Of a DNA stretch of 51,694 nucleotides, positions 10,663 to 48,778 are shown piece after piece. Each line of letters begins with the position of its first letter. The stretch's first letter is position 1. The stretch spans positions 1 through 51,694 of the forward strand of contig ONCM01000019.1 of assembly GCA_900316305.1 (NCBI GenBank), in the 5' to 3' direction. A program made the position numbers and the translations under genes. The stretch is from an uncultured Bacteroidales bacterium (GTDB lineage Bacteria; Bacteroidota; Bacteroidia; Bacteroidales; WCHB1-69). Under the pieces are notes generated by a model. That model did no database searches and was not told the DNA's origin. It saw only the letters and a list, made by a program, of their open reading frames with translations.

Positions 10663-10668
10663 GATAAA

Positions 10669-32842: not shown

Positions 32843-33330
32843 AGAAAATGAGAGAAATAGCTGGCTACGTGCTCGGCGGTTTGATGTTCGTGCTGTTGAT
32901 TCCGACCGTGATGTGGCTGGCCTCTGGCAGGCCCGATTTTGGGGACATCCCTGTCTGGCGGATAGTGATTGCCGTAGTGATAGCGGTGGTCGGCATCGCG
33001 CTAAGTGTCTGGTCGATAGTCTATATGCGGCACAAAGGCGACGGCAACCCGATGGACGCCTTCGGCCACGAGGTCGCGCCCCGCACCAGGCACCTGATGA
33101 CCGACGGTCCCTACCGCTTGAGCCGCAACCCCATGTTGACCGGCAGTTTTGTCTATTACGCCGGCGTCTGCTTCTGCCTTTGGACCTGGCAGGCCTTGCT
33201 GGTCTTCGCGGCCTTCATCGCCATCATGCTTTTGCAGGTTCGCAGCGAAGAGAAGCGCCTTCTCCAGGACTTCGGCGCGGAGTACGAGGAATACTGCCGG
33301 CGGACGGGGCGCTTTTGGCCGAAGGGGTGA
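32839..33330 (+). CDS. Isoprenylcysteine methyltransferase-like membrane protein
   Basis: 163 residues from the ATG at 32839, which overlaps the exporter's TGA. Longer upstream in-frame codons lie inside the exporter gene and are rejected. About four membrane helices span about 8-150. The C-terminal block GPYRLSRNPMLTGSF followed by RSEEKRLLQDFGAEYEEYCRRTGRF is the ICMT/NnrU/phospholipid methyltransferase signature with the SAM-binding RNP. A second member of this group is encoded at 49954. The substrate is unknown; small lipids or short-chain acceptors are possible. It is the last gene before the defence-island boundary. Confidence 0.85.
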   Translation: MKKMREIAGYVLGGLMFVLLIPTVMWLASGRPDFGDIPVWRIVIAVVIAVVGIALSVWSIVYMRHKGDGNPMDAFGHEVAPRTRHLMTDGPYRLSRNPMLTGSFVYYAGVCFCLWTWQALLVFAAFIAIMLLQVRSEEKRLLQDFGAEYEEYCRRTGRFWPKG

Positions 33331-33449
33331 CCTACCGCACCGCCGCATCAAAGCTCCGGGCAAAGCGCTCGACCCACTTACCCAAGTAGCAGGCAAGTAG
33401 TCATACAGTAGTTGCCTAGAACTTGCCAAGTCCAAAGCCTTGGTTGAGC

Positions 33450-33515
33450 TTGCCATATCCTTGCCATATACTTGCCATATCCTTGCCAACCCCTTGCCAA
33501 CCCCTTGCCACGGCG
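33450..33515. repeat. 11-bp tandem repeat, six units
   Basis: Units TTGCCATATCC, TTGCCATATAC, TTGCCATATCC, then TTGCCAACCCC twice, and a partial sixth. The period is exactly 11. It sits at the boundary between the GC-rich flank and the AT-rich island. Confidence 0.88.
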
Positions 33516-33545
33516 CTCGAAAGCGTCGCCTATCCTGTAAGCACG

Positions 33546-33553
33546 TATTTTTG
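33546..33553 (+). promoter_or_regulatory. -7-like box, first of a pair
   Basis: TATTTTTG matches TAnnTTTG. It lies 51 bp upstream of a second identical box. Confidence 0.4.
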
Positions 33554-33596
33554 ACAACGATAATTACACCACAACACGAGATTTACGAGAATTTTG

Positions 33597-33604
33597 TATT
33601 TTTG
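33597..33604 (+). promoter_or_regulatory. -7 box, likely promoter of the leader transcript before the island
   Basis: TATTTTTG in a clearly AT-rich context, facing the terminator at 33869 and the operon at 33947. Confidence 0.55.
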
Positions 33605-33611
33605 CAACGAA

Positions 33612-33908
33612 GTATTGTTGGTGAATACGTCAACGAAATTAGAATTAATTGATTTAATTTCAATAAAATACAAAAAAAATGAGATAAAAAGAAACATAGC
33701 GTCATAAACATCCTTGATTAGACTGATATACCAGAAATAGGACACTGCGAAAGCATCAGTTCAGACAAGGCAACGGGTGTTTGCGCTCTTCAATCTGAGG
33801 GCGTGGACAGAATGGTTGTTGTCTGATGCGGGCAGTCCTATGCCTTGGTATCGCAATCTGACATCTGCGCCCTCTTTTCAAAAAAAGAAAAAGGGGGCTT
33901 TTTCTTTT
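33612..33908 (+). ncRNA. Candidate leader or small RNA ahead of the defence operon
   Basis: A transcript starting from the box at 33597 would run about 295 nt to the terminator. TCAGACAA (33761-33768) can pair with TTGTCTGA (33819-33826), an 8-bp stem over a 50-nt loop. GCATCA (near 33753) offers an alternative partner for TGATGC (33824-33829), so two mutually exclusive pairings are possible. No convincing protein gene lies inside. It could be an attenuator for the operon, an independent RNA, or the remains of a lost gene. Confidence 0.35.
33869..33908 (+). terminator. Strong terminator 39 bp upstream of the island's first gene
   Basis: GCCCTCTTTT (33869-33878) pairs with AAAAGGGGGC (33889-33898) with one G-T pair, followed by TTTTTCTTTT. 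The polarity is plus strand, toward the AIPR gene. No complete gene ends here, so it probably acts on a leader RNA. Confidence 0.75.
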
Positions 33909-33946
33909 AAAAAGTTGTAATAAACAAATAAACACGATATCCGAAT

Positions 33947-36304
33947 ATGAACGATAACGAAGAACAATTTGACGATTTTAAGACACCGGAGACCGCAACC
34001 TATGTGAATGAAACTATTGGCAGGGTGGTTCAAAAAGAGCTCACTGAAGTGGAACAGTTTAAAAGAGATCTTGACGACCAGCTTATGATGGCAGACAGCC
34101 CTAAGGACGAACTGACAGAGATGATTATAGGATACATTCAAGGTGCCGGTGATGTGAACCAAGTGAACATCTGCTCTTATCGGGCAAAAAATGGTGTTGG
34201 CATTGACGCTTGGGGGTTCAATGGTGACGAGGATTTGACCACTATTGATCTGTTTCTAACGCTTTACGTTGACCCGGACGAAAACGTCAAAATTTCTGCC
34301 AACGATTTGGACCGTCATTTTAACTGGCTTAATCGTTTTTATGATCAGTCCAAAGCAGGGACGATCTTTTCAAAGATTGACGAAGAAAAAAGCGATCTCT
34401 ATCAAGTGGCCCAGCTTATTAACCAAACTAACAATATTGATCGTATTCGTCTTTTTTTGCTGTCCAATGCTATTATGCCTACAAACTACGATAAGCCCAA
34501 TACTGAATTGGAGTCAGGTACTAGCTGCGAGTTTTATGTATGGGATGCCAAACGTGTTATGCAGCAAGACCACATCATCTCTGGTAAGAGTCCTATCGTG
34601 GTGGATTTTGAAGGTGACTACAACATAACGCTCCCGTGCATAAAGATGCCTGACGTGTCTGAAAACGTATCGTGTTACCTTTGTATAATTCCGGGTATAG
34701 TTTTGTCTCAGGTCTATCACAAATATCACCAACAAATCTTGGAGATGAATGTGCGTACCTTCCTCCAATTCAAAGGAGCCTCCAATAAAGGTATTCGCGA
34801 TACCCTAATCGGCCACAAAGCCACGCCCATCGAGCGGAGAAAAGGTGTTGAAGATTCGGAAGCAGAACCAGATATGTTCTTTGCCTACAACAACGGTATA
34901 TCTGCCACCGCTTCAGAAATCAAGTTGAACGAGGAAGGAAACGCCATTACTCGAATCAAATCTTGGCAGATTGTGAATGGAGGTCAAACCACTGCTGCCA
35001 TCCATGCTGTAATGAGTATGAAAGATGTGGACATCTCCGATTTGACAAAGGTGTATGTGGCAATGAAAATATCTGTTATTAAGGACAAAGAAAACCTACC
35101 ATACATTGTCCCTCGCATCTCAAGATTTGCCAACACACAGTCTGCCGTCAAGAAATCAGACTTTAATATTAACGAACAATTTCTAGTAGAACTGGAGCAA
35201 CGTTCCCGCGAGGAATGGGTTGTCAATTCATCAGGCAAACCCGTTTCTAAGTGGTTCTTCGAACGGACTCGTGGCCAATATCTTGACAAAGCCAAACGTG
35301 GCGGCGGTCCCAAAGCCGAAAAAGAGTTTTATGCCGAATATCCTAAGTGCCAGATGTTTGACAAAACGATGTTGTCTAAATTTATGATGGCATGGGATCA
35401 GAATCCTGCCAGTGTTTGTAAAGGTGGTGAAAACAATTATGGCGTATTCTTCAATCGTATGAAACAGCAGGCTATTCGCTTCGATGCCACCCGGTATCAC
35501 CGTACTGTAGCAAAGGCCATTCTATTCAAGGCTATTGACGCATTCTATGGCAAAGACGGGTTGGCTTTGCCTGGTTATAAGTCCAATATGGTGGCATACA
35601 CCGTGTCTCTGCTCTCATACCTTTCTGGGAAAGCACTAGATCTTGATACTATTTGGAAAGAGCAATGCGTGATTTCTTCTGCAGTTTATAACGAACTGAA
35701 CATTGATATTTACAGCATTTATGCCAAGTTAATTAACGGTGCTGAACATATCACATACAAGGTTAAGGAGACGTATTCTGCAACTGACGGTAAGCGTAGA
35801 AATCGCTATGTGCCCAAAAGCATCCCCGCAATAGACCTTAGACAGATTAAAGAAACTATGCTCTATCAAGTTCTGCAGTATGTAAAATTGATTGAACCTG
35901 TAGTATACAGCCATATCTTTGATGTCAATGAGGGCGAAAACATTAACGAGTGGACAAAAAAAACAACCTGCTGGGATTCTCTCAAAGTTAAAGCATCAAA
36001 CTTGAGTGCCAAATACAATATTCCTCAAGATCTTTGTTCTGCTACTGGCGACATGGATATCGAGGTGACAGAAGGACAGCAGAAATTCATCAATGAGGCA
36101 TCTGAAATAGACCCTGCTTTTTGGTTCAGTATCAACAAATGGTCAAAAGATAATCCTGGTGAACTCACACCCAAGGAGCAGGCATTTGTTGCCCAGGTTG
36201 GATTCAACCTAAAACGAAAAAAGCCATTGACCTATAAGCAAGCTAAATGGGCATTAGACATTTACGATAAAGCAAAAGAGGCCGGTTGGGGAAAAGATGA
36301 ATGA
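33947..36304 (+). CDS. AIPR-family protein (abortive infection/phage resistance)
   Basis: 785 residues. The AIPR core (about 265-560) has FLQFKGASNKGIRDTL, FFAYNNGISATASEI (near 308) and WQIVNGGQTTAAIHA (near 340), hallmarks of PF10592, named after phage-resistance proteins. The N-terminal part (about 45-110) includes GIDAWGFNGDEDLTTIDLFLTLY, in the place where many AIPR proteins carry a PD-(D/E)XK-like element. The final Q-x-K-type catalytic residues are not visible, so nuclease activity is doubtful. The mechanism is unknown. It is the first gene of the island, with its stop overlapping the helicase start by 8 bp. Codon and base composition is more AT-rich than in the flanks. Confidence 0.88.
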   Translation: MNDNEEQFDDFKTPETATYVNETIGRVVQKELTEVEQFKRDLDDQLMMADSPKDELTEMIIGYIQGAGDVNQVNICSYRAKNGVGIDAWGFNGDEDLTTIDLFLTLYVDPDENVKISANDLDRHFNWLNRFYDQSKAGTIFSKIDEEKSDLYQVAQLINQTNNIDRIRLFLLSNAIMPTNYDKPNTELESGTSCEFYVWDAKRVMQQDHIISGKSPIVVDFEGDYNITLPCIKMPDVSENVSCYLCIIPGIVLSQVYHKYHQQILEMNVRTFLQFKGASNKGIRDTLIGHKATPIERRKGVEDSEAEPDMFFAYNNGISATASEIKLNEEGNAITRIKSWQIVNGGQTTAAIHAVMSMKDVDISDLTKVYVAMKISVIKDKENLPYIVPRISRFANTQSAVKKSDFNINEQFLVELEQRSREEWVVNSSGKPVSKWFFERTRGQYLDKAKRGGGPKAEKEFYAEYPKCQMFDKTMLSKFMMAWDQNPASVCKGGENNYGVFFNRMKQQAIRFDATRYHRTVAKAILFKAIDAFYGKDGLALPGYKSNMVAYTVSLLSYLSGKALDLDTIWKEQCVISSAVYNELNIDIYSIYAKLINGAEHITYKVKETYSATDGKRRNRYVPKSIPAIDLRQIKETMLYQVLQYVKLIEPVVYSHIFDVNEGENINEWTKKTTCWDSLKVKASNLSAKYNIPQDLCSATGDMDIEVTEGQQKFINEASEIDPAFWFSINKWSKDNPGELTPKEQAFVAQVGFNLKRKKPLTYKQAKWALDIYDKAKEAGWGKDE

Positions 36305-37961
36305 GGATCCGATGCGCGAGTCATATCTAGATGAGGAAGTTGACGTGGTTCAACCCTTTGAAGGTCCAGAAATTCGCTTCTCACATATAGAAGCGGATGA
36401 TAGTGGTTTGCGCCCATATCAAGCCAACATAAAAAAACAGGTCTATGACCTTTGGGATAAGATAGACAATGTCATGCTCCAAATGCCAACAGGCACAGGA
36501 AAGACCATCGTTTTCGCCTCCATTGTCCATGATATTCTTAAGTGGTGTCGAAATCATAGCAAAGACTCAAAGATACTGATTATTGCCCACCGCAAAGAAC
36601 TCATTGACCAAGCAAGTAACAAACTGGGAAAACTGTCGCATGGCATCATACAAAGCGGTAAACCGCAGCAGCTGTCTTTGCCTGTCCAAGTGGCTTCCAT
36701 CCAAACCTTTATGAGCCGGAGGAACTATGAAACTATGCGCCGTCAACGATTCGATTTCATTATCATCGATGAGGCGCACCACTCTTTGGCTCCTGGCTAC
36801 CAAAAACTGTGGGATATGTTTCCAAACAGTAAAAAACTTGGAGTAACGGCAACCCCGTGGCGAATGTCGCATTCTGGATTCACATCGCTTTTCGGCGACA
36901 TAGTCTTATCTCGCAGCATAGAATGGTTCGTAAATAATGGCTATTTGTCTAACTACGACTATATCTCCATCAATCGTGATTCGGAGTTGCAGCATGAGAT
37001 CAATTCCATTGAACGCTATGGAGCCGATGGCGACTATCTTGAGGCAGAATTGAGTAACTTGTTTGACAAGGACAAGATTCGCGCAGAGCTATATAAGAGT
37101 TACAAACAATTTGCCAAAGGAAAGAAAGGCATCGTCTATGCTATCGATCGTAGGCATGCCGCCAATATTACAGAATTGTATTCCGTGAATGGTGTTAAGG
37201 CCTGTATGATTGATGGCACAACACCCGCCAATGAGCGCAAGAATTTGATAGATGCGTTTAAGGCTGGTAGTGTTGAAGTGATTGTTAATGTGAACATCTT
37301 CTCCGAAGGCTTCGACTGTCCAGACATCGAATTCGTTCAGTTGGCCCGTCCTACTAAGTCACTGGCACTTTACCTGCAGCAGATAGGCCGCGCGTTACGT
37401 ATCTCAGATAACAAGATGAGTTCCATTATTCTTGACAACGTAGGACTCTATAACCGCTTTGGCACTCCTATGGCCAACCGCCGTTGGCGTTATCATTTTC
37501 TGGGGCACGATGAAGGAGAAGGTTACAACGATGGATCCGGTGTTAATCGCGACATCGTTTTCGACGCACAGGAACGAGAGCCTGATTATAGCGAGGGGAA
37601 TGAAGAAATGGTGGTGGTTGAGCACACTAATGGAGGTAAACAGATACGTACGGAAGATGCCAACAATGCTGTTGCTTTAGGAGAGTACAACATTTTTCGA
37701 AAAGGAGGTCTATATGGCGTCTGCGACCACAACAACCGCACTTTGGTGCCACCGGTATATGAAGACATGCAACCCTACTGCAATGGATATATCCCTTTCA
37801 AACAGAATGGCAAATGGGGCATTATGCTGAAGAATGGCACTGTGAAAGTCAAACCTAAATACTTTTACATTGGTCCTTTCATTGAAGGTGTAGCGAAAGT
37901 GCAAAATAGAGAAAACGATCCCTTTTATTACATAAACGATAAGCTGGAAAGAATTGAATAA
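36297..37961 (+). CDS. SF2 DEAH helicase with C-terminal WG repeats
   Basis: 554 residues. The helicase core (about 35-380) has LRPYQANIKKQVYDLWD, MPTGTGKTIVFASI (Walker A), IIDEAHHSLAPGYQ (DEAH box), VTATPWR (motif III) and LYLQQIGRALRISDN (motif VI), as in type III/SSL2-like helicases linked to restriction and defence. A linker and then WG-repeat sequences (about 455-554) follow: FRKGGLYGVCDHNNRTLVPPVYE, GYIPFKQNGKWGIM and FIEGVAKVQ. WG repeats are usually separate domains, so fusing them to a helicase is unusual and may add a protein or ligand contact. The ATG is inside the AIPR stop region, and the stop overlaps the next start, so expression is coupled to both. Confidence 0.9.
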   Translation: MNEDPMRESYLDEEVDVVQPFEGPEIRFSHIEADDSGLRPYQANIKKQVYDLWDKIDNVMLQMPTGTGKTIVFASIVHDILKWCRNHSKDSKILIIAHRKELIDQASNKLGKLSHGIIQSGKPQQLSLPVQVASIQTFMSRRNYETMRRQRFDFIIIDEAHHSLAPGYQKLWDMFPNSKKLGVTATPWRMSHSGFTSLFGDIVLSRSIEWFVNNGYLSNYDYISINRDSELQHEINSIERYGADGDYLEAELSNLFDKDKIRAELYKSYKQFAKGKKGIVYAIDRRHAANITELYSVNGVKACMIDGTTPANERKNLIDAFKAGSVEVIVNVNIFSEGFDCPDIEFVQLARPTKSLALYLQQIGRALRISDNKMSSIILDNVGLYNRFGTPMANRRWRYHFLGHDEGEGYNDGSGVNRDIVFDAQEREPDYSEGNEEMVVVEHTNGGKQIRTEDANNAVALGEYNIFRKGGLYGVCDHNNRTLVPPVYEDMQPYCNGYIPFKQNGKWGIMLKNGTVKVKPKYFYIGPFIEGVAKVQNRENDPFYYINDKLERIE

Positions 37962-39111
37962 GAATATACAAGAAACGCCTTTGGACGATGAAGGATTGAA
38001 TTGGTCGTTACGGCAATTCGAATCGCCAGATAAGACCATCCGCCTAGCCACAACATTCAGTGGAATAGGTGCAATTGAGTATGCTTTTAAGCGTTTGGGG
38101 TTAAATTACAAAATAGTATTCGCAGGAGACATAAACGACAATTGCAAAGCATCATATTTTGCCAATTACGATATATCTCCTAAAATATGGCATAGCGATA
38201 TCCATCAGTTTAATGCAAAGCCATACAGAAACCAAGTAGATTTATTAGTCGGAGGTGCTCCTTGTCAGGCTTTCTCTATTGTCGGAAACAGGAAAGGATT
38301 TGAAGATACGAGAGGAACATTATTTAGGGAATTTGCTCGTATTATAAGAGAATGTAAGCCCAAGGTTTTTCTGTTTGAAAACGTTCAAGGGTTATACAAT
38401 CATGATGATGGGCAAACTTGGGAAGTCATTAGTAATACATTTAAAGATTATTGTGGCTATCACATCTATTTCAGAAGGTTGAATAGTAAAAACTATGGAA
38501 TACCCCAGCATAGAGAAAGACTATACTGTATTGGCTTCAGGAGACAAACCAAATTTCAGTTTCCGGCTCCCATAGAGTGCCCATATATCATGTATGATTT
38601 TATGGAGGATTACAGAGGCGGAAACTATTATATCAAAAAATACGATTGCAAGGTGCTCACACCTCGCTCTGAACGTAAAACAGATTTAGCTTCGGGAAAG
38701 GTGAAGCCTGAGTATAATGAGTTTGTTTTCAAGTGTGCTGATGTGGATGATAAGTATTACTTATCAGAATCTGTTGCAAATTATGTTTTGGCTGGAGGCT
38801 CCAAAAACTTTAAGACTTCAACAAAAACAGATCTTAGAATAGCAAGACCCTTACTCCAATCTATGCATAAAATGCACAGAGCGGGGGTTGATAACTATGT
38901 TTCATACACAAAGAAGAAAGGAATTAATGGTTTAAGAAGACTTACTCCTAAAGAATGTCTTCGTCTTATGGGGTTTACAGATGAGTTCAACGAGGTTGTG
39001 TCAAATACAGCATTGTATATGCAAGCTGGAAACAGTATCGTGGTAGATGTCCTCATAGCCATTCTTAAACAAGTTGATATCACAAAATATGGTATAGATT
39101 ATGGCGAATAA
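37954..39111 (+). CDS. DNA (cytosine-5) methyltransferase 1
   Basis: 385 residues, Dcm/M.HhaI type. Motif I is ATTFSGIGAIE (about 32-42). The catalytic loop PCQAFS has Cys104, preceded by LLVGGA. Motif VI is FENVQGL, motif VIII PQHRERLYCIGF, and motifs IX-X RRLTPKECLRLMGF and QAGNSIVVDV. The target recognition part lies between about 190 and 325. It must start at a TTG (37954) inside the helicase stop codon, because no ATG or GTG is available before motif I. It is a tandem paralogue of the next gene. The pair suggests one enzyme per strand of an asymmetric site, as in LlaJI. Confidence 0.94.
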   Translation: MNKNIQETPLDDEGLNWSLRQFESPDKTIRLATTFSGIGAIEYAFKRLGLNYKIVFAGDINDNCKASYFANYDISPKIWHSDIHQFNAKPYRNQVDLLVGGAPCQAFSIVGNRKGFEDTRGTLFREFARIIRECKPKVFLFENVQGLYNHDDGQTWEVISNTFKDYCGYHIYFRRLNSKNYGIPQHRERLYCIGFRRQTKFQFPAPIECPYIMYDFMEDYRGGNYYIKKYDCKVLTPRSERKTDLASGKVKPEYNEFVFKCADVDDKYYLSESVANYVLAGGSKNFKTSTKTDLRIARPLLQSMHKMHRAGVDNYVSYTKKKGINGLRRLTPKECLRLMGFTDEFNEVVSNTALYMQAGNSIVVDVLIAILKQVDITKYGIDYGE

Positions 39112-40276
39112 GAAGCATACAACAACTGGCAATACTCGTAATTTGTTTGAGAATAAAGATTGGAGAAATAAAGCTTTTTCCTGTCCGAATGGTGTTGTCC
39201 GTATAGGCACCTCGTTTAGTGGTATTGGAGCAATTGAACACGCCTTCGTCAGATTGGGCATCAAGCATAAAATCATGTTTGCTGGAGATATTGATGCCAA
39301 TTGTAAGAAATCATATTTTGCAAACTATAAGATTTCAGAAAAACAATGGCATACAGATGTTCATGATTTTGATGCAAAGCCATATAAAGGCTTAATTGAC
39401 TTGTTTGTTGGCGGTGCCCCATGTCAAGCTTTTTCACTTCGTGGTAAACATGGTGGATTCGAAGATACAAGAGGAACTCTATTCAGAGAGTTTGCAAGAA
39501 TTGTAATGGAATGTAATCCTCGTGTCTTTATTTTTGAAAATGTAAAAGGGATGTTAAGTCACGACAAGGGACGAACATGGAAAGTTATCAAGGAAACATT
39601 TGAAAAGGATTGTGGATATGACGTGCATTTCCAGCTTCTTAATGGAAAAGATTACGGCATTCCTCAAAGTAGAGAAAGATTGTTTTGTATAGGTTTTAAG
39701 GAGGCTACTAGTTTTTCTTTCCCAACACCAATTCCGCTGCAGAGAACGGCCTATGACTTTTTGCAAGAAACATTTGACAAGAAGTATTTGCTCAAACAAA
39801 AAGGGGTTAATTTCATAACTCGTAGTATAAATCATCAAAAGAGTTATACTCAAATAAACGGTGATGTGCTTTTATGCCAAAAAAGGAATCAGCAATTTAA
39901 TTGGCATGGCGACTTCATTTTTCACCCTTTAACAAAGTGTGATGATCGAAGAATGCCTGTTGATGACACACTTTTCAAAGTCTCTGATTTTGAAGAGATG
40001 TATTATGTGAAATCTCACCCTGAAAAGTATGCGATAACTGACGATGGTAATGGGCATTATACAATTCACAAAGATTCGTTGAATAACATTGATATGGATT
40101 ATGGTCGATTTAGAAAATTGACTCCAAGGGAATGCTTAAGATTGATGGGATTTGATGATTCTTTTAAGATTGTAGTTAATGATACTGAGGCGTATAAACA
40201 AGCAGGGAATAGTATTATTGTAGATGTTCTGATTGCTCTCTTAAAGGAGTTAGATATTACAAAATATGCAGAATAA
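39101..40276 (+). CDS. DNA (cytosine-5) methyltransferase 2
   Basis: 391 residues, Dcm type, starting 11 bp before the first methyltransferase ends. Motif I is GTSFSGIGAIEHAF (about 36-49). Catalytic Cys108 lies in GGAPCQAFS. Later motifs are FENVKGM, PQSRERLFCIGF, RKLTPRECLRLMGF and QAGNSIIVDV. The framework motifs closely resemble methyltransferase 1, but the middle of the chain (about 195-330), where target recognition lies, is different and slightly longer. This fits two enzymes of one origin with different half-sites or strands. The stop overlaps the start of the 185-residue gene. It is probably the second self-protection enzyme of the restriction set. Confidence 0.94.
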   Translation: MANKKHTTTGNTRNLFENKDWRNKAFSCPNGVVRIGTSFSGIGAIEHAFVRLGIKHKIMFAGDIDANCKKSYFANYKISEKQWHTDVHDFDAKPYKGLIDLFVGGAPCQAFSLRGKHGGFEDTRGTLFREFARIVMECNPRVFIFENVKGMLSHDKGRTWKVIKETFEKDCGYDVHFQLLNGKDYGIPQSRERLFCIGFKEATSFSFPTPIPLQRTAYDFLQETFDKKYLLKQKGVNFITRSINHQKSYTQINGDVLLCQKRNQQFNWHGDFIFHPLTKCDDRRMPVDDTLFKVSDFEEMYYVKSHPEKYAITDDGNGHYTIHKDSLNNIDMDYGRFRKLTPRECLRLMGFDDSFKIVVNDTEAYKQAGNSIIVDVLIALLKELDITKYAE

Positions 40277-40823
40277 CAACTTTCGATATATAAATGATTG
40301 GGCTGTAATAAGGCTTGCCGATAGCTTTGTGAAAATAAACAAGGCTGGTACTGGTAATGGCGAAGCCGCATTATATCTTGGGAGCAAGTATGACCCTGAC
40401 ATATTCAGATTCTTCGAATGTGAAAATTTTGATGCTCATTGCATGATACTTAGGGACGACATGCTGGATTATCTTCAACAGGTTAAAATCGAGTATGCTC
40501 ATAACTGCCGCATTTACAGAAACGAAGTAAGTCTAAGAACCTGGGGTGAAAACTACAATGAGATTAATTCATTGCCAGAGGAACTCTACTTTGATTTAAC
40601 TCGCAAAAGGCAATTCGACAAACATGGTAGAGTGTATGCCCAGGAATTAACTTATAAACGTGCTAAATTCTATTCATTAGTAACTGATCATAAAGCTTAT
40701 GTTTATGATTTGATACGAAGGATCTCTATTCCTGAAGTTTCATTTCTAATGTTGACCAAAATCGAGGACAATAGTCCTATTGGCTATTATGCCAAATTGT
40801 ATTATGATCCAAATTTCAATTAA
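40266..40823 (+). CDS. Unknown 185-residue protein of the defence operon
   Basis: I do not recognise this family. There is no signal peptide or membrane helix. The sequence is rich in aromatics and acidic residues, with RLADSFVKINKAGTGNGEAALYLG, FFECENFDAHCMILRDDMLDYLQQVK and a final EVSFLMLTKIEDNSPIGYYAKLYYDPNF. The mix of strands and one long helix suggests a compact globular fold. It sits between methyltransferase 2 (11-bp overlap) and the McrB-like gene (3-bp gap), so it is very likely made with them. Possible roles are an accessory subunit of the restriction complex, a regulator, or a protein that conveys specificity. In BsuMI a third restriction gene sits alongside the McrB-like one, which makes an accessory subunit reasonable. 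Confidence 0.75.
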   Translation: MQNNNFRYINDWAVIRLADSFVKINKAGTGNGEAALYLGSKYDPDIFRFFECENFDAHCMILRDDMLDYLQQVKIEYAHNCRIYRNEVSLRTWGENYNEINSLPEELYFDLTRKRQFDKHGRVYAQELTYKRAKFYSLVTDHKAYVYDLIRRISIPEVSFLMLTKIEDNSPIGYYAKLYYDPNFN

Positions 40824-40826
40824 CCT

Positions 40827-43391
40827 ATGGCAGATATAATATGTAGGTGGCGTAACGGAACGCCCAAGAATGTAGTTGAGTTGGTAAATGCCTTGCCCCA
40901 TCAAACGATGGAAACAGGTGCGTTTAGACGTTATATGGATTCTAAATGGATCGACTTCTTCACCACTCCATATCAGTTGGCATGTCAACTTGGATTATAT
41001 TGTGAAGCTGATGATGGCTATTATTATCCAAGATTTGATCATGATATCAATGAAAAAGAAGCCGAAGAATATCTATACCATTGGTTACCCAGATATTATG
41101 TTCCTAATCCTTATGTAGGTAAGGATGGGTTCAATAATATAGCTTGTCCCACATACGTCCTTAAGTCTTTATACGATTATACACTGGCTAATTCTGGTAC
41201 TGATTATGCTACAGCATATCAAGCTGTCTTCAAAGAAGAGGCAAAAAACAATGATGATATCGTAAGGAACTATATCAATAGATATTCCAAGGTTATGGAA
41301 ATGACAAAAGACGGAGGATTAAAAATAAAAGATAATAATACACAAAACATATTTGGCTTTATGGATAGAAATGACAAGAAAGCATTTTTCGATAATTTTA
41401 CTTCTCAGCAAATTGACCCAATGAAAATGTATCAAGAAGGTAATTTGGAAGAACGAAAGGCAATGTTCCGCAAATATCTTGAATCAAGGGGCTTATCAGA
41501 AAGTACGATAAAACAATACGTTCAGTATCATTTAGTAAACAATGCAGTACTTAATGTGGTCAAAAAAGAATCAGGGAAGAATAATATGTATGAAGTTGTC
41601 GACTTGTTTCAAATTGAGAAAATCTATAAAGGATGTAACCAATTGCCAGAGAATAAATCACGTAATAATGTCTATAGCGCGTCTGTCAGTAACTATAAGG
41701 ACTTTATTGATTTTTTGGAAACTGATGAAGCAGCCCAGTTATATGGCGATTCTTTCGTTTCATCTGTGATTGAGAATCCTGTATTTGAAAACGTCAATTC
41801 CCGTGTATGGATCTACTCTCCCGGTGCGCAAGCCAGTCTTTGGGAGGAATGCCAGCGACAAGGCTTGATGCGTCTTGGGTGGGATGACCTTGGCGATTTC
41901 AGCCAGTTTGATTCTCGCCAGTCGGTGATTGCCAAGATGAAAGAAATATATGGTGTTGATAATAACAGCAATGATACGTTAGCAGTATGGCAGTTCATAA
42001 ACGATATGCAAATTGGAGACATTGTATATGCAAAACGAGGAATGTATCATATCATAGGAAGAGGTGTTGTGGAAGGAGATTATGAGTTTAATGACAGTTT
42101 GGATGAGTTTAAAAATACCCGACGTGTTAAATGGACAAATGTGGGCGACTGGGAGGCTCCCTACCACCTTCCTCAGAAAACACTGACACTCTTACCTGCA
42201 GATAGTTCCAACATCCAATTGTTGGAACAAACCGTTACAGGACTGCTTAAAACGGAGATTCTTGCAGAACCTTTCTCCATCAAGAAAATCATAGGATATA
42301 TCCAAGAAACAGGTTTACTTTACGCCGACAACTTGATTAAGCGTTTTGTTTTCTCACTGATGTCTAAGCGTTTTTTGATTTTAAGCGGTCTCGCGGGTTC
42401 GGGGAAAACACAATTGGCGTTAGCGTTCGCCAGCGCTTTGGTTAAAAACAAGGACGAACAGATGTGCGTGGTAAGCGTAGGCGCTGACTGGACAAACCGT
42501 GAGCCTTTGCTCGGTTTTCCAAATGCACTTCAACAAGGGAAATATGTTAAGCCAGAAAGCGGCGTACTTGATCTGTTGATTGAGGCTAATCGACCGGAAA
42601 ATGCCAGTAAGCCTTTCTTCTTGATTTTGGACGAAATGAATATGAGCTATGTGGAACGTTACTTTGCCGATTTCCTGTCGGCAATGGAAAGCAAGGAAGC
42701 GATTTCCTTATGGAACACAAATGGAGCAGAAGATGCTGAGGAAATTGATGGCGTACCACAAAAAGTGACCTTGCCCAAGAACTTATTTATCATCGGCACT
42801 ATCAACGTGGACGAGACCACCTATATGTTCAGTCCAAAAGTGCTTGACCGTGCCAATGTGATTGAGTTCAAGATTTCAGAAGAAGAAATGGCTGGATTTT
42901 TGGCCAAGATAAAAGAAGTAAATCGTGAAAGCATCATTGGTAAAGCTGTGGGCATGGGAGCCAGTTTTGTGGAAATAGCCTGTCAAAAAGAACTGGCAGA
43001 AGATAAACAAGCTGTGAACGCGCTAAATAGTTTCTTTAAGGAATTGAAAGGCGTGAACGCAGAATTCGGTTATCGATCGGCCACGGAGATTTTACGCTTT
43101 ATTTGCCAGGCCAAGGCAAATGACGATACTGATAAAAAACTATCAGATAATGAGATACTGGATGCCGCTATTGTGCAAAAAATGCTTCCCAAACTGCACG
43201 GCTCGCGTAAAAAACTGGAACCTGTTTTACAACAGTTGTGGAAACTTTGCTTCGTTCAAGAAATGCGAGATACAATGGCAGTAAATGCTTCAAATGTCAG
43301 CAAAGCCCGATTCAAAGAAAGCGCCGACAAGATACGTAGAATGTACGAATCGGCTATTGCTAATGGATTCACGAGTTTTGCGGAGGCTTAA
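40827..43391 (+). CDS. McrB-like AAA+ ATPase/GTPase with an EVE/PUA-like reader domain
   Basis: 854 residues. About 1-170 has no known motif. At about 210-300, RKYLESRGLSESTIKQYVQYH with YKDFIDFLE resembles the N-terminal core-binding (SAM-like) domain of tyrosine recombinases. At about 327-455, VWIYSPGAQASLWEE, WQFINDMQIGDIVYAKRG and IIGRGVVEGDY look like an EVE/PUA-like domain that reads modified bases. The AAA+ domain follows: Walker A GLAGSGKT at 521-528, Walker B FFLILDEMNMSYVERYF near 597-613, and sensor-like TINVDETTYMFSPKVLDRANVIEF. McrB's GTP-binding MNTADRS is only partly matched, so ATP or GTP use is open. It should drive the McrC-like nuclease at 45209. Confidence 0.88.
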   Translation: MADIICRWRNGTPKNVVELVNALPHQTMETGAFRRYMDSKWIDFFTTPYQLACQLGLYCEADDGYYYPRFDHDINEKEAEEYLYHWLPRYYVPNPYVGKDGFNNIACPTYVLKSLYDYTLANSGTDYATAYQAVFKEEAKNNDDIVRNYINRYSKVMEMTKDGGLKIKDNNTQNIFGFMDRNDKKAFFDNFTSQQIDPMKMYQEGNLEERKAMFRKYLESRGLSESTIKQYVQYHLVNNAVLNVVKKESGKNNMYEVVDLFQIEKIYKGCNQLPENKSRNNVYSASVSNYKDFIDFLETDEAAQLYGDSFVSSVIENPVFENVNSRVWIYSPGAQASLWEECQRQGLMRLGWDDLGDFSQFDSRQSVIAKMKEIYGVDNNSNDTLAVWQFINDMQIGDIVYAKRGMYHIIGRGVVEGDYEFNDSLDEFKNTRRVKWTNVGDWEAPYHLPQKTLTLLPADSSNIQLLEQTVTGLLKTEILAEPFSIKKIIGYIQETGLLYADNLIKRFVFSLMSKRFLILSGLAGSGKTQLALAFASALVKNKDEQMCVVSVGADWTNREPLLGFPNALQQGKYVKPESGVLDLLIEANRPENASKPFFLILDEMNMSYVERYFADFLSAMESKEAISLWNTNGAEDAEEIDGVPQKVTLPKNLFIIGTINVDETTYMFSPKVLDRANVIEFKISEEEMAGFLAKIKEVNRESIIGKAVGMGASFVEIACQKELAEDKQAVNALNSFFKELKGVNAEFGYRSATEILRFICQAKANDDTDKKLSDNEILDAAIVQKMLPKLHGSRKKLEPVLQQLWKLCFVQEMRDTMAVNASNVSKARFKESADKIRRMYESAIANGFTSFAEA

Positions 43392-43454
43392 AGAAAAAGA
43401 AGACGTGAAACGAAGATTGAAATTTGAGAAAAGGAAAACATTAAAACTACCAAC

Positions 43455-45122
43455 ATGACGGAAAAAGAACTAAAAGAATTCTTGTTTGACAATTATCCTA
43501 AAGAGGATGAAAAATGCGACTGGAAGGAAATGAAAAACTTGAAGAACTCTTTCAATGGACACGAAGGGGAGGATGTGATGTCGTATGTGTCGGGCATTGC
43601 GAACATGGAGGGAGGGGCTCTTGTAATTGGTGTTGTGGATCAGACAATGGATATTGTGGGGACAGACCTGTCGCAGTTTAATCTCGATACTAGTTCTGCC
43701 GTTTATAGAATCAAGGAAAACTGTACAAATGTCTCTTCTGAGGGCTTAAATATTGACGAATATATCACTTCTGACACCCACAAGGTGGTGTGGATTATTC
43801 ATATTCCCAAGCATTTGCCTCGCAAACCCGTTTATGCACACAAAAAGGCATGGCAAAGGATAAAGGACAACCTCGTGCCCCTAACACCTGAGCGTGAAGA
43901 GACAATTCTGAACGAAGGCTTATTGCAACAGGATTGGACAGCAAAAATACTTCCAGACGCCACCATTGATGACCTAGACCCTGCTGCCATATTGAAAGCA
44001 CGAGAAAAGTATAAAGAGGTGTATCCCCAAAAAGAAAAGGAAGTGGATGCATGGGACGACAAGACATTCTTGAATAAAGCTCACATTACGATTAAAGACA
44101 AGATTACAATTGCAGCCATTATTTTGTTGGGAAGAGAAGAGTCGGAACATTATTTGTTACCTGCTGTCTGTAAGGTTAGGTGGTCTCTGAAAAACGAGAA
44201 GTCCGAAAACCTAGATTTCAAGGTGTTTTCAATCCCAATGATTTTGGCAATTGAGGATATAGGGAGACAAATCAGAAACACCTCATACGAGTTTACAATC
44301 AGCGGCAACATTTTCCCTGAGAAAATGCTGCGTTATGATGAGTTTACCCTGAGAGAGCCTCTAAATAACGCCATCGCCCACCAAGACTATGACAAAGGTG
44401 CAAGAATTGAGGTGATAGAATACGAAAACGACCATTTGATGTTTAGAAACCATGGCGTGTTTTTGCCCGAATCTGTGGAAAAGGTGGTTTTAGATGACAG
44501 CCCAGAGTCAATTTACCGGAATCCGTTCCTGGTTGAGGCCATGAGAAATATTCACATGGTTGACACCGAAGGTGGGGGTATTAAAAAGCTGTACGAACAA
44601 CAGAAAAAACGCTTTTTCCCCATGCCGGAGTATGACACTTCTGGTGGCAAAGTGACGGTGGACATCGAAGGCAAAGTCATTGACGAACAGTTTGCGAGAA
44701 TATTGGTCAGTGTTCCCGAACTGTCCATGTCGGACTTGATTTTACTTGACAAAGTGCAGAAGCAGAAACGTTTAACAGACGAAGAGGTGAAATATTTGAG
44801 GAAGAAAAAATTCATCGAAGGTCGAAAAAACAACCTGTTCCTCTCTAAGGTTCTTACTCGTAGTACTGGTAATGTGGGGTTAAAGTCCACTTATGTCAAA
44901 AACAAAAGTTTTGATGATGAATATTTTCGAAGATTGATAGTCCAATATATTCAAAAGTTTGGATCTGCCAGCAGGGCTGAAATCGTTATGCTGTTGAAAG
45001 AGAAACTTTCAGATGCTTTAACTGACACACAAAAAGAAAACAAAATTACAAATCTCTTGTCCTATCTGAGAATCCACAACGTGATAAAAACAAATGGGAA
45101 AAAAAGATGGATTTTGGTTTAG
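43455..45122 (+). CDS. AlbA_2/HATPase_c_4 (Schlafen-like) protein
   Basis: 555 residues. The N-terminal AlbA_2 (Schlafen AAA_4-like) domain (about 5-135) has CDWKEMKNLKNSFNGHEGED, MSYVSGIANMEGGALVIGV and VWIIHIP, and is expected to bind nucleic acid or a small molecule. The HATPase_c_4 domain (about 285-385) has LREPLNNAIAHQDY, MFRNHGVFLPESVEKV and TEGGGIKKLYEQQKKRFF. A winged-helix-like tail follows about 480. Such proteins are common in defence islands and often act as regulators. Gaps of 63 and 86 bp separate it from its neighbours, more than the other island genes, so it may be an insertion or a separately controlled unit between the McrB-like and McrC-like halves. Confidence 0.85.
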   Translation: MTEKELKEFLFDNYPKEDEKCDWKEMKNLKNSFNGHEGEDVMSYVSGIANMEGGALVIGVVDQTMDIVGTDLSQFNLDTSSAVYRIKENCTNVSSEGLNIDEYITSDTHKVVWIIHIPKHLPRKPVYAHKKAWQRIKDNLVPLTPEREETILNEGLLQQDWTAKILPDATIDDLDPAAILKAREKYKEVYPQKEKEVDAWDDKTFLNKAHITIKDKITIAAIILLGREESEHYLLPAVCKVRWSLKNEKSENLDFKVFSIPMILAIEDIGRQIRNTSYEFTISGNIFPEKMLRYDEFTLREPLNNAIAHQDYDKGARIEVIEYENDHLMFRNHGVFLPESVEKVVLDDSPESIYRNPFLVEAMRNIHMVDTEGGGIKKLYEQQKKRFFPMPEYDTSGGKVTVDIEGKVIDEQFARILVSVPELSMSDLILLDKVQKQKRLTDEEVKYLRKKKFIEGRKNNLFLSKVLTRSTGNVGLKSTYVKNKSFDDEYFRRLIVQYIQKFGSASRAEIVMLLKEKLSDALTDTQKENKITNLLSYLRIHNVIKTNGKKRWILV

Positions 45123-45208
45123 AGAGATTTAAATGAAAAATGCATAGTTTAAACAAAGTAGGTGTGTATTTGTATATAAATCAACAATTTACAAACACAA
45201 CAGTTTAA

Positions 45209-47563
45209 ATGAACTATAAACAAACAGACTGTATGTTAGACCATCTCGAAATACCAATTACAGGAAAAGCCAGCAACTTGAAATTGGTGGTATATCCGCA
45301 ATCTTCAAAGGCGAAGGTCTTTGAAGAGGATAAGCCGTATGCAGGTGAATCGAGGTATCAATTGGTGGAAGGATGTACCTACACTTACGAGTTTGTGGGC
45401 GAATCTAACAGCCATCGTTGCCAGTTTGAAAAAGAGAGTGAAATTGTGCAATTTCATCGCAATATGATAAGTCATGCTTGTGAAGGCACACTAACGACGG
45501 GCATCTTCGTCGGCCACTTGACGCTGAACGTGGTGAATGTGGATACCAAGGAACAAGTGGGACGCGTAAGCATGGAAATAAGGAGCATAAAGTCTGACTA
45601 CCATCACGACTACCGACTGATGCTAAATGAAATAGCTGAATACTATACCGACCTTGTGCTGCAACAGGGGTCGCCTGTGACGCAGCAGCTGGAAATTGAT
45701 CAAAACTGCTCATCGCAGACGCTGTACCAGAGGTTTTCTTTCGTGCGTTCGCTGATTGACAGCGAGGCGTTCTCGGAGGCCATCCATAAAATCATATCCA
45801 ATCCGGTGAGAAAATGGACGGATGCCAACATTGAAAGAAGCATCGTTGGAGTAAGGCGGTTATCGCGCAACAATATCCGTCAGATTGCATCAAGAACCGA
45901 TAGAATCCATCTCCCTGCTGGATTACGGTCAGGTTTGCCTGAATCCTTGACAAGCGTACCTCGAAACATTGATGTTGAATATAAACGAGATACAACGGAT
46001 AACCAAGAAAACCAGTTCGTGAAATTCGTGCTACGGACATTCGTGAATTTTTGCTCTGACATCAAAGGCTTTACCAATACCAACGAGCAACTAAAAGCGG
46101 AGGCAGACCAAACTTTGGAACAATTATATAGCCACCTTGACAACCAGTTTTTTCGTCAAATCTCACTTCCCACACACTTAAACATGAACAGCCCTGTGCT
46201 GCAACGCAAAGAGGGCTATCGTGAAGTACTGCAAGCTTGGCTGCTTTTCGACTTAGCGGCGAGGTTGAACTGGACAGGAGGGGATGATGTTTACGACGCT
46301 GGCAAGAAGAATGTGGCAACGCTTTACGAATACTGGCTATTTTTCAAATTGATGGAGTTGGTGAGCGAATTCTTCCACATTGATTCGAAAGCTAAGCACG
46401 AATTGGTGCAGATGGATAATGACGGCATCAACCTAAACCTAAAACAGGGCAAGATGAGGATGGTGAGTGGACGACAGGAAACCTTCTCGCGCATACTGAA
46501 TGTGGCGTTCTATTACAACCGTTCCTTTAGCAGGATGGCCAATGACAAAGATCCAATTCATTCTGCCGGTAGTTGGACTATGACCATGCGTCCAGATTAT
46601 ACATTATCACTTTGGCCAGGTGAGATAACAGAGATAGAGGCCGAGCGACAGGAATTAGTCACCCACATACACTTCGACGCAAAATACCGTTTAGATAAAG
46701 TGTTACTGGAAGATAAAGACGCGGGATCGGATATTGACAAAGAACTGGCCGAAGAAAAACAAGAGCAAGAAATGAAAATATATAAACGTGGTGACCTGTT
46801 GAAAATGCACGCATACAAAGATGCTATCCGTAGGACAAGTGGCGCCTATGTGCTATATCCCGGCGAAAAAAACAAAGAGTTACGTGGTTTTCATGAAATC
46901 GTACCTGGTTTGGGTGCATTCAGCATCCGACCAGGTCATTGGCAAGAAGACTCCGTCTATTTGAAACAATTCCTTGCCGAAGTGAAGGCTCACTTGCTTG
47001 ACCGCACTTCTGACCGTGAGAAACTGTCATACTATGAGTATGATATACACCGTGAAGAGAGCACCTCTATGGTGATGGATAATATGCCAGAACCTGTTGG
47101 TGAAAATCGCGATTTCCTACCCGATGAAACCTATGTCATAGTGGCCTATTTCAAGAACCAAGAACATCTTGATTGGATTTTGGAACATCACTTGTACAAT
47201 ATGCGTGCTGGTGATGATAAGGGATCTGTTGAATTAGATAAAGAACTGATGAACGCTCGATATTTGCTACTGCATAGCAATAAGGAGGTGCGCTCACTGA
47301 TTCGCATCAAAAAGAAAGGACCGAAAATTTTCACACGAAAGCAACTCATAAAAATGGGCTACCCAACTTATATGAAAGGCGGCGTTATAGACAATTGGCG
47401 TGAAGAACAAGAAAAGGATCGAATTTATCTGCTTTTTGAATTGTTTCAAGACAACGATGTTGAGAAAGAGTTACGTAACTATCGCTGGAAGCCGGAACAA
47501 TTCAGTCATACCCAAAAACCTTATGTCGCCCCGTTGGTGAGTATTCTAAAAAAGAGTTTATGA
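45209..47563 (+). CDS. DUF2357 plus PD-(D/E)XK nuclease, McrC-like
   Basis: 784 residues. The N-terminal DUF2357 region spans about 1-300, with YHHDYRLMLNEIAEYYTDLVLQ near 130-152. A nuclease domain lies at about 430-600. MRPDYTL, then about 25 residues on HFDAKYRLDK, supplies the Asp and DxK pattern of PD-(D/E)XK enzymes. A C-terminal region ends with a MGYPTYMKGGVIDNWREEQEKDR block and an extended tail. DUF2357 proteins usually sit next to McrB-like ATPases and serve as the nuclease partner. Here an AlbA-type gene lies between them, so the partnership is inferred from the island. It is the last clear member of the set; the next gene is unrelated housekeeping. Confidence 0.85.
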   Translation: MNYKQTDCMLDHLEIPITGKASNLKLVVYPQSSKAKVFEEDKPYAGESRYQLVEGCTYTYEFVGESNSHRCQFEKESEIVQFHRNMISHACEGTLTTGIFVGHLTLNVVNVDTKEQVGRVSMEIRSIKSDYHHDYRLMLNEIAEYYTDLVLQQGSPVTQQLEIDQNCSSQTLYQRFSFVRSLIDSEAFSEAIHKIISNPVRKWTDANIERSIVGVRRLSRNNIRQIASRTDRIHLPAGLRSGLPESLTSVPRNIDVEYKRDTTDNQENQFVKFVLRTFVNFCSDIKGFTNTNEQLKAEADQTLEQLYSHLDNQFFRQISLPTHLNMNSPVLQRKEGYREVLQAWLLFDLAARLNWTGGDDVYDAGKKNVATLYEYWLFFKLMELVSEFFHIDSKAKHELVQMDNDGINLNLKQGKMRMVSGRQETFSRILNVAFYYNRSFSRMANDKDPIHSAGSWTMTMRPDYTLSLWPGEITEIEAERQELVTHIHFDAKYRLDKVLLEDKDAGSDIDKELAEEKQEQEMKIYKRGDLLKMHAYKDAIRRTSGAYVLYPGEKNKELRGFHEIVPGLGAFSIRPGHWQEDSVYLKQFLAEVKAHLLDRTSDREKLSYYEYDIHREESTSMVMDNMPEPVGENRDFLPDETYVIVAYFKNQEHLDWILEHHLYNMRAGDDKGSVELDKELMNARYLLLHSNKEVRSLIRIKKKGPKIFTRKQLIKMGYPTYMKGGVIDNWREEQEKDRIYLLFELFQDNDVEKELRNYRWKPEQFSHTQKPYVAPLVSILKKSL

Positions 47564-47593
47564 TTTTTCACCTAAAAAAAACACAAATATCCT

Positions 47594-47860
47594 ATGCCCC
47601 ACACCCTCTACAAAACCCAAGGCACCTGCTCGCAGTTCATCGATGTGACCGTCGATGACGACGGCGTCATCCGGCAGGTCTTCTTTTATGGCGGATGCGA
47701 CGGAAACCTCCAGGCCATCTGCCGATTAGTCATCGGACAGAAAATCGACGATGTCATCCCAAAACTCAACGGCATCCGCTGCGGAGGGAAGCCCACCTCC
47801 TGCCCCGACCAGCTCTGCCGCGCACTGGAATCGCTGAAGCAGTCCGCACAAGAAAAATAA
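47594..47860 (+). CDS. TSCPD-domain protein (TIGR03905 type)
   Basis: 88 residues. GGCDGNLQAICRLVIG (about 33-48), GIRCGGKPTSCPDQL (about 60-74) and the terminal ALESLKQ form the short TSCPD module. A similar domain occurs at the C-terminus of some class II ribonucleotide reductases. The stand-alone form has no settled role and may bind a metal through the Cys residues. It is GC-rich and ordinary in codon use, so it lies outside the island. The next gene starts 9 bp after its stop codon. Confidence 0.9.
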   Translation: MPHTLYKTQGTCSQFIDVTVDDDGVIRQVFFYGGCDGNLQAICRLVIGQKIDDVIPKLNGIRCGGKPTSCPDQLCRALESLKQSAQEK

Positions 47861-47869
47861 CACCCCCTG

Positions 47870-48778
47870 ATGCCCTCCTCTTCCATAAAACGGAATCTCT
47901 CGGTCGCGCTGTTCCTCACGCTGATGGTGGTTGTGGCGGATGTTTCGGGACAAAGCGAGGTCATCTTCCCCGAGGCGGCGGCGCTGTGCGTCGGACTCTG
48001 GCTGATGCCCAAGGCGGTGTGGAACATGCAAGGGTGGCAAATCCCCCTCTACCTGACGGCCGCGGCCACTATCGGACTGGCCCTCAACCTGCTGCTGCCC
48101 GCCGGCTTCGAAATCCGCTTTGCGCTGGCCTTCGTCATCGTGATGGGACTGCTGCGGTTGGTGCGGTGCAATATGTATCCCACCGTCTCGGCGGCTATGC
48201 TGCCCGTGCTGGTGGGGACTACCTCGTGGCTCTATCCCGCCTGCGTACTGGTGATTTCGGTGCTGCTGGCCCTCGGCAGAGGCTGGCTCCGACAAGAGGA
48301 ACGTACGGAATACCACTCCTTCGGAGGACTCCAGCTGGTTCTGCTCACGGCCTCCGTGTGCCTCCCCCTGGCCGTCACCCTCTGCCTCTCCAATCCCACC
48401 TTCCGTTTTCTCGCAGTGCCTCCTCTGGTGGTCACTATGATCGAGTTCTCCAACCGCCGCAGCGGCTTCCGCGAACGCCCGTGGACCATCTGGGCGCTCA
48501 TCGTCGCCGCCGCCGGCTTGGGCACCCTCACTTGTATGCTGCTCCATCATCGGTGGGGCCTTCCGCTGGCATTGGGCACGTTCGTGACAGTGTCTCTTAT
48601 GCTTCTGCTGTTCCGTCGGTTCAAACCCTTCGCCCCGGCTTTGGCCATCGCCATTGTGCCGGCGTTGCTGCCCTGCGAGGCGCTCCCGTGGTTCCCGCTC
48701 CTGGCTGTCCTCGGCGGAGGTTGGTTCATCCTTGCCGGAATGCTGGTCCCAAAATGGATGCCGTCTGGAAAAGCATAA
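47870..48778 (+). CDS. Polytopic membrane protein, HPP-like
   Basis: 302 residues, mostly hydrophobic, about eight membrane helices (for example LPLAVTLCLSNPTF and FVTVSLMLLLFRRF). FALAFVIVMGLLRLVRCNMYPTVSAAMLPVLVG and a second copy near 225-265 with LPLALGTFVTVSLM and FAPALAIAIVPALLP suggest an internal duplication of an HPP-type unit. HPP proteins are proposed to transport nitrite or similar anions, but that is weak for this divergent protein. It follows the TSCPD gene closely and has a high GC content like it. Confidence 0.65.
   Translation: MPSSSIKRNLSVALFLTLMVVVADVSGQSEVIFPEAAALCVGLWLMPKAVWNMQGWQIPLYLTAAATIGLALNLLLPAGFEIRFALAFVIVMGLLRLVRCNMYPTVSAAMLPVLVGTTSWLYPACVLVISVLLALGRGWLRQEERTEYHSFGGLQLVLLTASVCLPLAVTLCLSNPTFRFLAVPPLVVTMIEFSNRRSGFRERPWTIWALIVAAAGLGTLTCMLLHHRWGLPLALGTFVTVSLMLLLFRRFKPFAPALAIAIVPALLPCEALPWFPLLAVLGGGWFILAGMLVPKWMPSGKA

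Follow-up and report, generated by a model that had tools for sequence, protein, structure and literature searches.

In the parts of PMC1459862 that treat the LlaI, BsuMI and LlaJI restriction–modification (R-M) systems, three restriction open reading frames (ORFs) are given for LlaI and BsuMI and two for LlaJI, in which R1 is the specificity subunit. It has also been established for McrBC that cutting is activated by a motor, the McrB-type protein activating the McrC-type nuclease (Bell et al., PMC11090510, in the sections on this mechanism); the same source announces that methyltransferase-associated NxD homologues are to be treated elsewhere. The locus described here lies in a contig of 51,694 nucleotides (nt) from an uncultured Bacteroidales bacterium (ONCM01000019.1, assembly GCA_900316305.1), the whole of which is called the window. 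Eight plus-strand genes at 33947–47563, all present as ORFs, encode an AIPR-family protein, a superfamily 2 (SF2) helicase with WG repeats, two 5-methylcytosine (m5C) methyltransferases (M1 and M2), a small protein (U), an McrB-like AAA+ protein, an AlbA_2/HATPase_c_4 protein and a DUF2357–PD-(D/E)XK nuclease; this content and order, given by a first-pass annotation of the letters, are confirmed by the ORFs and by Pfam and PADLOC matches. The set is probably a single R-M system, in which recognition of an unmethylated site would drive the AAA+ motor and the nuclease, while the AIPR–helicase pair, referred to below as the head, would be a conserved helper or second stage.

Like LlaJI and BsuMI, the window has two tandem m5C methyltransferases, M1 (37954–39111) and M2 (39101–40276), which match Pfam DNA_methylase at 5.5e-73 and 7.2e-75, respectively, and keep the PCQ and ENV motifs; the TTG start of M1 is also present in two related loci, L003 and L009. 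An McrB-like AAA+ protein with an unrelated N-terminal half and a separate PD-(D/E)XK subunit are likewise shared. The AAA+ protein, of 854 amino acids (aa), has only weak, sub-threshold AAA-type matches in Pfam; it can be read as McrB-like from its PADLOC match (PDC-M26A, which we take to be an McrB-type model, 1e-45), from weak PDB matches to McrB (E 3e-4 to 0.03) and from its position before the DUF2357 nuclease. From N to C terminus it comprises about 300 unique residues (1–298, at 40827–41720, the predicted target-recognition region), an EVE-like domain (326–438, at 41802–42140) and the AAA+ motor (42288–43391), whose Walker A and B motifs are intact and which carries the short NxD signature as NVD at residues 660–662, with NxDET kept in 30/30 aligned homologues. 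On this protein Pfam noted none of the long coiled-coil fusions that mark CoCoNuT systems, a dedicated coiled-coil predictor not being run. The nuclease subunit (45209–47563) is of McrC type, with DUF2357 at residues 93–344 and PDDEXK_7 at 371–554; its PD...DAK motif is intact, and the PD...D(A/C)K pattern is kept in 80/80 relatives.

However, the nuclease family differs. The LlaJI and BsuMI nucleases are RE_LlaJI proteins (PF09563), for which neither the window protein nor its own genome gave a match, the B. subtilis control being positive, whereas the window has DUF2357–PDDEXK_7; DUF2357 itself occurs in 0/14 control genomes. The window also adds U, the EVE-like domain, the AIPR protein, the WG helicase and the AlbA_2 gene, in a comparison that was not made directly against the LlaJI and BsuMI sequences. 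With the NxD branch of McrBC the window shares the NVD signature and a DUF2357–PD-(D/E)XK partner that is predicted to be active, together with nearby DNA methyltransferases. In contrast, the term AIPR has 0 occurrences in the main text of Bell et al. (PMC11090510), and neither the head nor the exchange of a whole cassette is described in the parts of that source drawn on here. The LlaJI/BsuMI label of the first-pass annotation stands as far as the two methyltransferases, the McrB-like motor and the separate nuclease are concerned and fails for the nuclease family; judged from the sequences, the set is right in kind as LlaJI-like, with an engine assignable to the DUF2357/NxD McrBC type.

M1, M2, U and the roughly 300 N-terminal residues of the McrB-like protein appear, by sequence comparison, to be exchanged as a single block. 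Between the window and L001, a goat Bacteroidales metagenome-assembled genome (MAG), the constant parts are 89% (AIPR), 92% (helicase) and 84% (DUF2357 nuclease) identical, and McrB residues 360 to 840 range from 73 to 97% per 60 residues; within the block, identity is 26% for M1, 33% for M2, 21% for U and 12–22% per 60 residues for McrB 1–299. DNA similarity ends at 37957, at the 3′ end of the helicase gene, and returns at 41796 inside the McrB-like gene, and these losses of similarity define the borders of the plus-strand specificity cassette (37957–41796). The window cassette type recurs in L003 (Xylanibacter ruminicola) and L009 (yak Prevotella MAG), with M1 at 85%, M2 at 70–71% and U at 86–87%, while the L001 type recurs in L013 (Prevotella UBA2725), with M1 at 76%, M2 at 64% and U at 53%. 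Five-row trees of AIPR (95/97) and helicase (99/97) pair the window with L001, as does the DUF2357 tree (70/67 with five rows, which is weak, and 100/100 with 31 rows); those of M1 and M2 group L001 with L013 and the window with L003 and L009, each at 100/100. M1 and M2 are 51–52% identical to each other in the window class and 28–29% in L001 and L013.

Base composition changes at these borders too. GC content is 34.8–37.2% in M1, M2, U and the McrB N-terminus and about 41–44% in the rest of the set (42.2–44.3% for AIPR, helicase, the C-terminal part of McrB and DUF2357); in L001, the unrelated M1, M2 and U have 34–37% against 43–45% for AIPR and helicase. Since the GC steps coincide with the cassette borders in both loci, the AT-rich stretch is this exchangeable specificity cassette rather than the whole island. 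The first-pass annotation had taken the contrast between about 28% and about 67% GC as a sign of transfer of the island; its values are right (28.3% at 38101–38160 and 66.7% at 48481–48540), but the reading misleads, because the low GC is that of the cassette alone and the 67% value marks a local maximum within a flank of 43–61% per kb. Transfer is better shown by the comparison of occupants of the chromosomal site, given below.

Within the cassette, U (40266–40823, 185 aa) belongs to no family and has zero Pfam matches. A single domain accounts for both U and the McrB N-terminus in the L001/L013 class, with 45% identity over 158 aa (E 8e-42) when 12 sequences were compared, so that at L001:5025–6058 (45% identity) and L013:7311–8350 a stand-alone small protein and a motor N-terminus stand as duplicates; in the window class the two were not detectably alike in the same comparison. 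In L022 (1661–2635) a relative of U (32%) carries a fused HNH_2 domain (27.4 bits, cut-off 21). U is likely to be a target-recognition part, since it covaries with the methyltransferases, its domain is duplicated and a relative is fused to HNH_2; the N-terminal half of the AAA+ subunit likewise differs along with the methyltransferases when the window is set beside L001. The profiles of U from classes A and B gave no match to each other, and the two proteins correspond by position. A B3/EcoRII-like fold for U, suggested by resemblance only, was rejected, the profiles of the class B and class A recognition domains giving nothing significant against PDB sequences (best E 0.32 and 0.3); the U model had no significant match in PDB or BFVD. 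On the short contig of L022, the U–HNH_2 gene adjoins a window-class M2 and an McrB–DUF2357 pair, with an McrB-N-like stretch as a separate ORF.

The head consists of the AIPR gene (33947–36304, 785 aa, Pfam AIPR 5e-72 and AIPR_N 7e-27) and the helicase gene (36297–37961). A scan of species genomes starting from the nuclease (best 80 of 144 loci) and searches starting from the helicase, independent of the nuclease and made in partly overlapping samples of species, together give eight head copies: the window, L001, L003, L009 and L013 from the nuclease scan, and L231, L232 and L233 from the helicase searches. The order AIPR, helicase, methyltransferase, methyltransferase, small ORF, McrB and nuclease is the same in four loci among the best 80 of 144 (L001, L003, L009, L013), and a general order of AIPR, helicase, m5C methyltransferase(s), an ORF of 170 to 250 aa, AAA motor, an optional slot and a large nuclease partner holds in 7/7 copies not cut by a contig end; in L231 (G1039) the contig breaks off directly behind the helicase gene. 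Chance can be set aside, because the same architecture recurs in other genomes. For 51 nuclease loci the upstream sequence reaches 9.5 kb or more; 8 of them have two or more methyltransferases within 9 kb before the nuclease, and the head is present in 4/8 of these versus 0/43 of the others. The genes are also closely packed, with overlaps of 8 nt between AIPR and helicase, 8 nt between helicase and M1, 11 nt between M1 and M2 and 11 nt between M2 and U. The proposal that AIPR and helicase, which overlap each other and the first methyltransferase, belong with the R-M set is thereby upheld: had the head never co-occurred with the other genes they would be separate neighbours, and an m5C set stands behind every copy with enough downstream contig (7/7).

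An alternative that bears on this pairing is that AIPR and the WG helicase are an independent, Hachiman-like two-gene defence that travels beside R-M as a second, damage-triggered layer, which we consider unlikely. Hachiman, in the descriptions drawn on here, pairs the HamA nuclease with the HamB helicase, and the window likewise pairs a nuclease-like protein with an SF2 helicase. The AIPR model (785 aa, predicted local distance difference test, pLDDT, 82.7; predicted template modelling score, pTM, 0.49; 28 sequences) has a nuclease-like order of elements at about residues 50–200, and six of the first eight rows of its Foldseek search are three MspJI chains, FokI, the BspD6I small subunit and HamAB chain A, all of which we take to be PD-(D/E)XK enzymes, chain A being presumably HamA. 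These weak, non-significant matches would favour an independent defence, as would the carriage of the head over unrelated cassettes and two engine types and the fact that head-bearing nucleases do not form a clade. On the other hand, no HamA model is among the Pfam and PADLOC matches of the window, the helicase gene overlaps the first methyltransferase, and unlike Hachiman the window-type head is tied to an m5C R-M set behind every copy with downstream sequence. The AIPR protein also lacks the canonical catalytic motif: the usual D/ExK is missing from the model, DLF or a close variant stands at its place in the third strand, and no lysine is found there in 14/14 aligned AIPRs; the helicase for its part has no nuclease domain among its Pfam matches.

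For these reasons, the non-significant Foldseek matches and the absent lysine, AIPR as an active PD-(D/E)XK nuclease was rejected, and the model suggests a nuclease-like fold that is probably inactive. The protein keeps conserved NNGI and VNGGQTT motifs; besides AIPR and AIPR_N its matches are a weak DUF3136 in Pfam and only MzaE and AbiU in PADLOC. The window resembles an MZA-type set in combining AIPR with an SF2 helicase, a PD-(D/E)XK protein, a HATPase-domain gene and m5C methyltransferase. Its AIPR protein differs from that of MZA in that it scores 291.6 bits against an MzaE cut-off of 1050. To our knowledge, AIPR proteins have no established job. A HEPN reading of AIPR is offered in part of PMC3506569; none of the matches obtained here pointed to HEPN, no formal HEPN test having been made. 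The helicase core is RadD-like or type IV restriction helicase-like, with ResIII/Helicase_C and two C-terminal WG repeats in Pfam and intact TGTGKT (Walker A) and DEAH motifs. Its nearest PDB entries are the putative helicase 7clg, which we take to be the type IV enzyme SauUSI, and RadD; its best PADLOC match is a type IV methyl-directed enzyme and its best NCBIfam match RadD.

The engine behind the head can also change. L232 (G933) has a head 74% (AIPR) and 72% (helicase) identical to that of the window, a single methyltransferase 61% and 60% identical to M1 and M2, a U at 66% and a motor whose residues 5–304 are 55% identical to the window recognition region (McrB-N 1–298); its engine, however, consists of an AAA_5 motor bearing NxxD and a partner of 800 aa. 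L233 (G1159) has AIPR at 52%, helicase at 66%, two other methyltransferases and a 250-aa ORF with no match to either U class, followed by an AAA_5 motor (NxD/NxxD signature not found by pattern), RhuM and a 781-aa partner. The two partners are 38% and 46% identical, respectively, to the L109 protein that matches PF09563 RE_LlaJI (29.3 bits, cut-off 23.6), so that here the same head comes closer to LlaJI and BsuMI. L232 combines this head and type of recognition with a LlaJI-like engine, and its one methyltransferase with the same recognition class shows that two are not obligatory. By sequence-based assignment, the head accompanies no fewer than three types of cassette and two of engine. That the same pair stays while specificity and engine are replaced around it argues that the head acts downstream of, or beside, target recognition. 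A separate observation concerns L109 itself (2538–10984), where a 47% helicase relative, without AIPR, precedes a window-class methyltransferase (58%), recognition region (49%) and RE_LlaJI engine, the AAA_5 motor carrying the window-class recognition region.

A second alternative, rather improbable in our estimate, is that the system is mainly a type IV, modification-dependent one, in which the EVE domain reads modified bases, the head serves that function and the methyltransferases are an added self-mark. The EVE-like domain has a PADLOC PDC-S02 match and aligns with the weak Pfam EVE match of the L014 homologue (E 4.5e-4, below the family cut-off); in the window, L001, L003 and L009 it belongs to the part of the motor that stays constant. 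L007 is an EVE-like McrB–DUF2357 pair with no methyltransferase found in its locus (7.5 kb upstream), and EVE–McrB has been described, in the relevant part of PMC7641849, as the commonest EVE fusion in defence systems. However, it is the N-terminus and not the EVE domain that covaries with the methyltransferases, L013 has no EVE domain by alignment, and in L232 the recognition region is retained next to a LlaJI-like engine.

It may further be asked whether the head is regulatory, AIPR restraining or licensing restriction, for instance after replication or DNA damage, and the helicase removing bound restriction complexes from host DNA. AIPR-type proteins occur in many m5C R-M sets, as noted in part of PMC2292703, and in our data 23/34 other AIPRs adjoin a gene with a DUF4420 profile; the head is moreover first in the gene order. 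Nevertheless, Pfam shows no known regulator domain in AIPR or helicase, and related nucleases do without the head, so that we regard a regulatory role as a minor prospect. A promoter scan of 33300–47800 on both strands gave 47 consensus sites versus 34.6 (standard deviation 5.6) in shuffles and is uninformative on the role of the head.

In the single R-M system that we favour, M1 and M2 would methylate cytosine at the host's own target, each on one strand of an asymmetric site by analogy with LlaJI. Recognition of that target in its unmethylated state would fall to U and to the first 300 residues of the McrB-like protein, since both change together with the methyltransferases. The AAA+ part, given its intact motifs, would hydrolyse nucleotide and activate the DUF2357–PD-(D/E)XK subunit, which would cut. 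The head would most likely act as a helper or second stage on bound or cut DNA, the helicase perhaps unwinding or tracking from the restricted site and AIPR serving as its DNA-binding or regulatory partner.

Several findings weigh against this interpretation. Five two-methyltransferase sets lack the head (L030, L047, L050, L056 and L071, L056 having less than 7 kb upstream), so that the head is a feature of a subset of such sets, and close DUF2357 relatives without it (L002, L005, L006, L007, L010) indicate that the DUF2357 engine does not need it. Head-bearing nucleases do not form one clade (4 changes, approximately unbiased test p 4.9e-6, some long branches flagged), and the number of copies is small; the four that are named, like the samples in which the others were sought, are Bacteroidales and so not far-apart lineages. 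The nuclease matches of AIPR in Foldseek are not significant (E 0.13 to 1.0), Pfam matches neither of the nuclease partners in L232 and L233, the alignment shows no EVE domain in L013, and the AlphaFold2 model of U is poor (pLDDT 65, 6 sequences).

More tentatively, and at somewhat less than an even chance, AIPR and the WG helicase may be a portable module that serves McrB-class restriction as a second stage and accompanies at least three unrelated cassettes and two kinds of engine (NxD McrB with DUF2357, and NxxD McrB with a LlaJI-like nuclease). The target would then be changed by swapping, as one block, both methyltransferases together with the motor N-terminus and the stand-alone recognition subunit, an exchange comparable to that of hsdS in type I systems except that the block carries its own methyltransferases, and the U/motor-N duplicates of one cassette class would hint at one reader per half-site. 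On this comparison, a motor-driven restriction system may be able to change its target through the transfer of one 3.8-kb block, and U becomes a candidate separate recognition subunit for the LlaJI class; the natural combinations of head, cassette and engine are a small ready set for testing the role of the AIPR–helicase pair.

Between motor and nuclease lies a cargo slot, occupied in the window by the AlbA_2/HATPase_c_4 gene (43455–45122; Pfam HATPase_c_4 and SLFN_AlbA_2), which alone is set off within the set, by gaps of 63 and 86 nt. DNA similarity to L001 ends again at 43398, before this gene, and returns at 45243 in the nuclease gene. Only the window and L001, among five DUF2357-engine head systems, have such a gene, the two products being 37% identical; the slot holds RhuM in L005, L006 and L233 and a 166-aa ORF of no family in L003, and it is empty in L009, L013 and L232. 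In L002, an HATPase_c_4 protein with a sub-threshold AlbA_2 match stands before the nuclease. The gene had been listed as a member of the set in the first-pass annotation; as a core component it was rejected on this 2/5 occurrence, and it is optional accessory cargo. DUF2357 nucleases 74–75% identical to that of the window occur at L002:8562–12337 and L010:6205–12322; no McrB-like gene was found near either, and what precedes them is an HATPase_c_4 protein or an SLFN-g3 helicase and a 448-aa ORF. At L123:8420–11853, an AIPR gene directly adjoins an AlbA_2/HATPase_c_4 gene, outside any McrB set seen.

Close relatives of the head are rare in the genomes searched, the nearest relatives of the window organism in this analysis being Bacteroidales. 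Among 393 genomes of the order, a helicase search at 1e-60 gave 7 matches and an AIPR search at 1e-30 gave 18, the own genome's being the only close one in each; in the own family, 7/104 genomes matched, again with only the own close. An AIPR search at 1e-60 of 399 genomes of the family of G394 gave 11 matches, G394 alone being close, a helicase search at 1e-150 of 309 genomes of the genus of G395 gave 5, including the previously found G395 and G396, and a helicase search at the same threshold of 173 genomes of the family of G393 gave one, G393. Against viral contigs, AIPR alone had zero relatives and the helicase two distant ones (49% and 51%), without AIPR, McrB or DUF2357 matches; one of them, L107, has two weakly methyltransferase-like ORFs upstream (30 and 31 bits). 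An alignment-based search found 27 viral-contig AIPRs, 0/27 of them beside the helicase family of the window. Plasmid searches gave 54 helicase records, distant only (all below 60%, best 40%), six distant DUF2357 records (24–26%) and one distant RE_LlaJI relative. No mobile carrier of the set was found in these viral-contig and plasmid searches.

The set occupies a variable chromosomal site (32790–47600), with a ThrE-family exporter gene on one side and a short conserved gene (47594–47860) on the other. A different set stands there in each of six same-genus relatives (L219–L224), m5C methyltransferases being present in 5/6 of these occupants, and the site is a genus-level defence hotspot. In L224 (G798) an MZA-type set lies at the same place. 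An ORF at 32458–33330 with a phospholipid-methyltransferase match overlaps the ThrE gene and may be a chance fusion or decayed, because its two parts often match separate places in relatives. Farther away, a 1573-aa ORF on the minus strand (12437–17158) has no Pfam match at 0.001. Just downstream of the set lie a YhcG-type PD-(D/E)XK nuclease (49057–49926) and a Vsr endonuclease (50631–51185); the latter may belong to the chromosomal neighbourhood rather than to the cassette, since Vsr is also found in the flank of L221.

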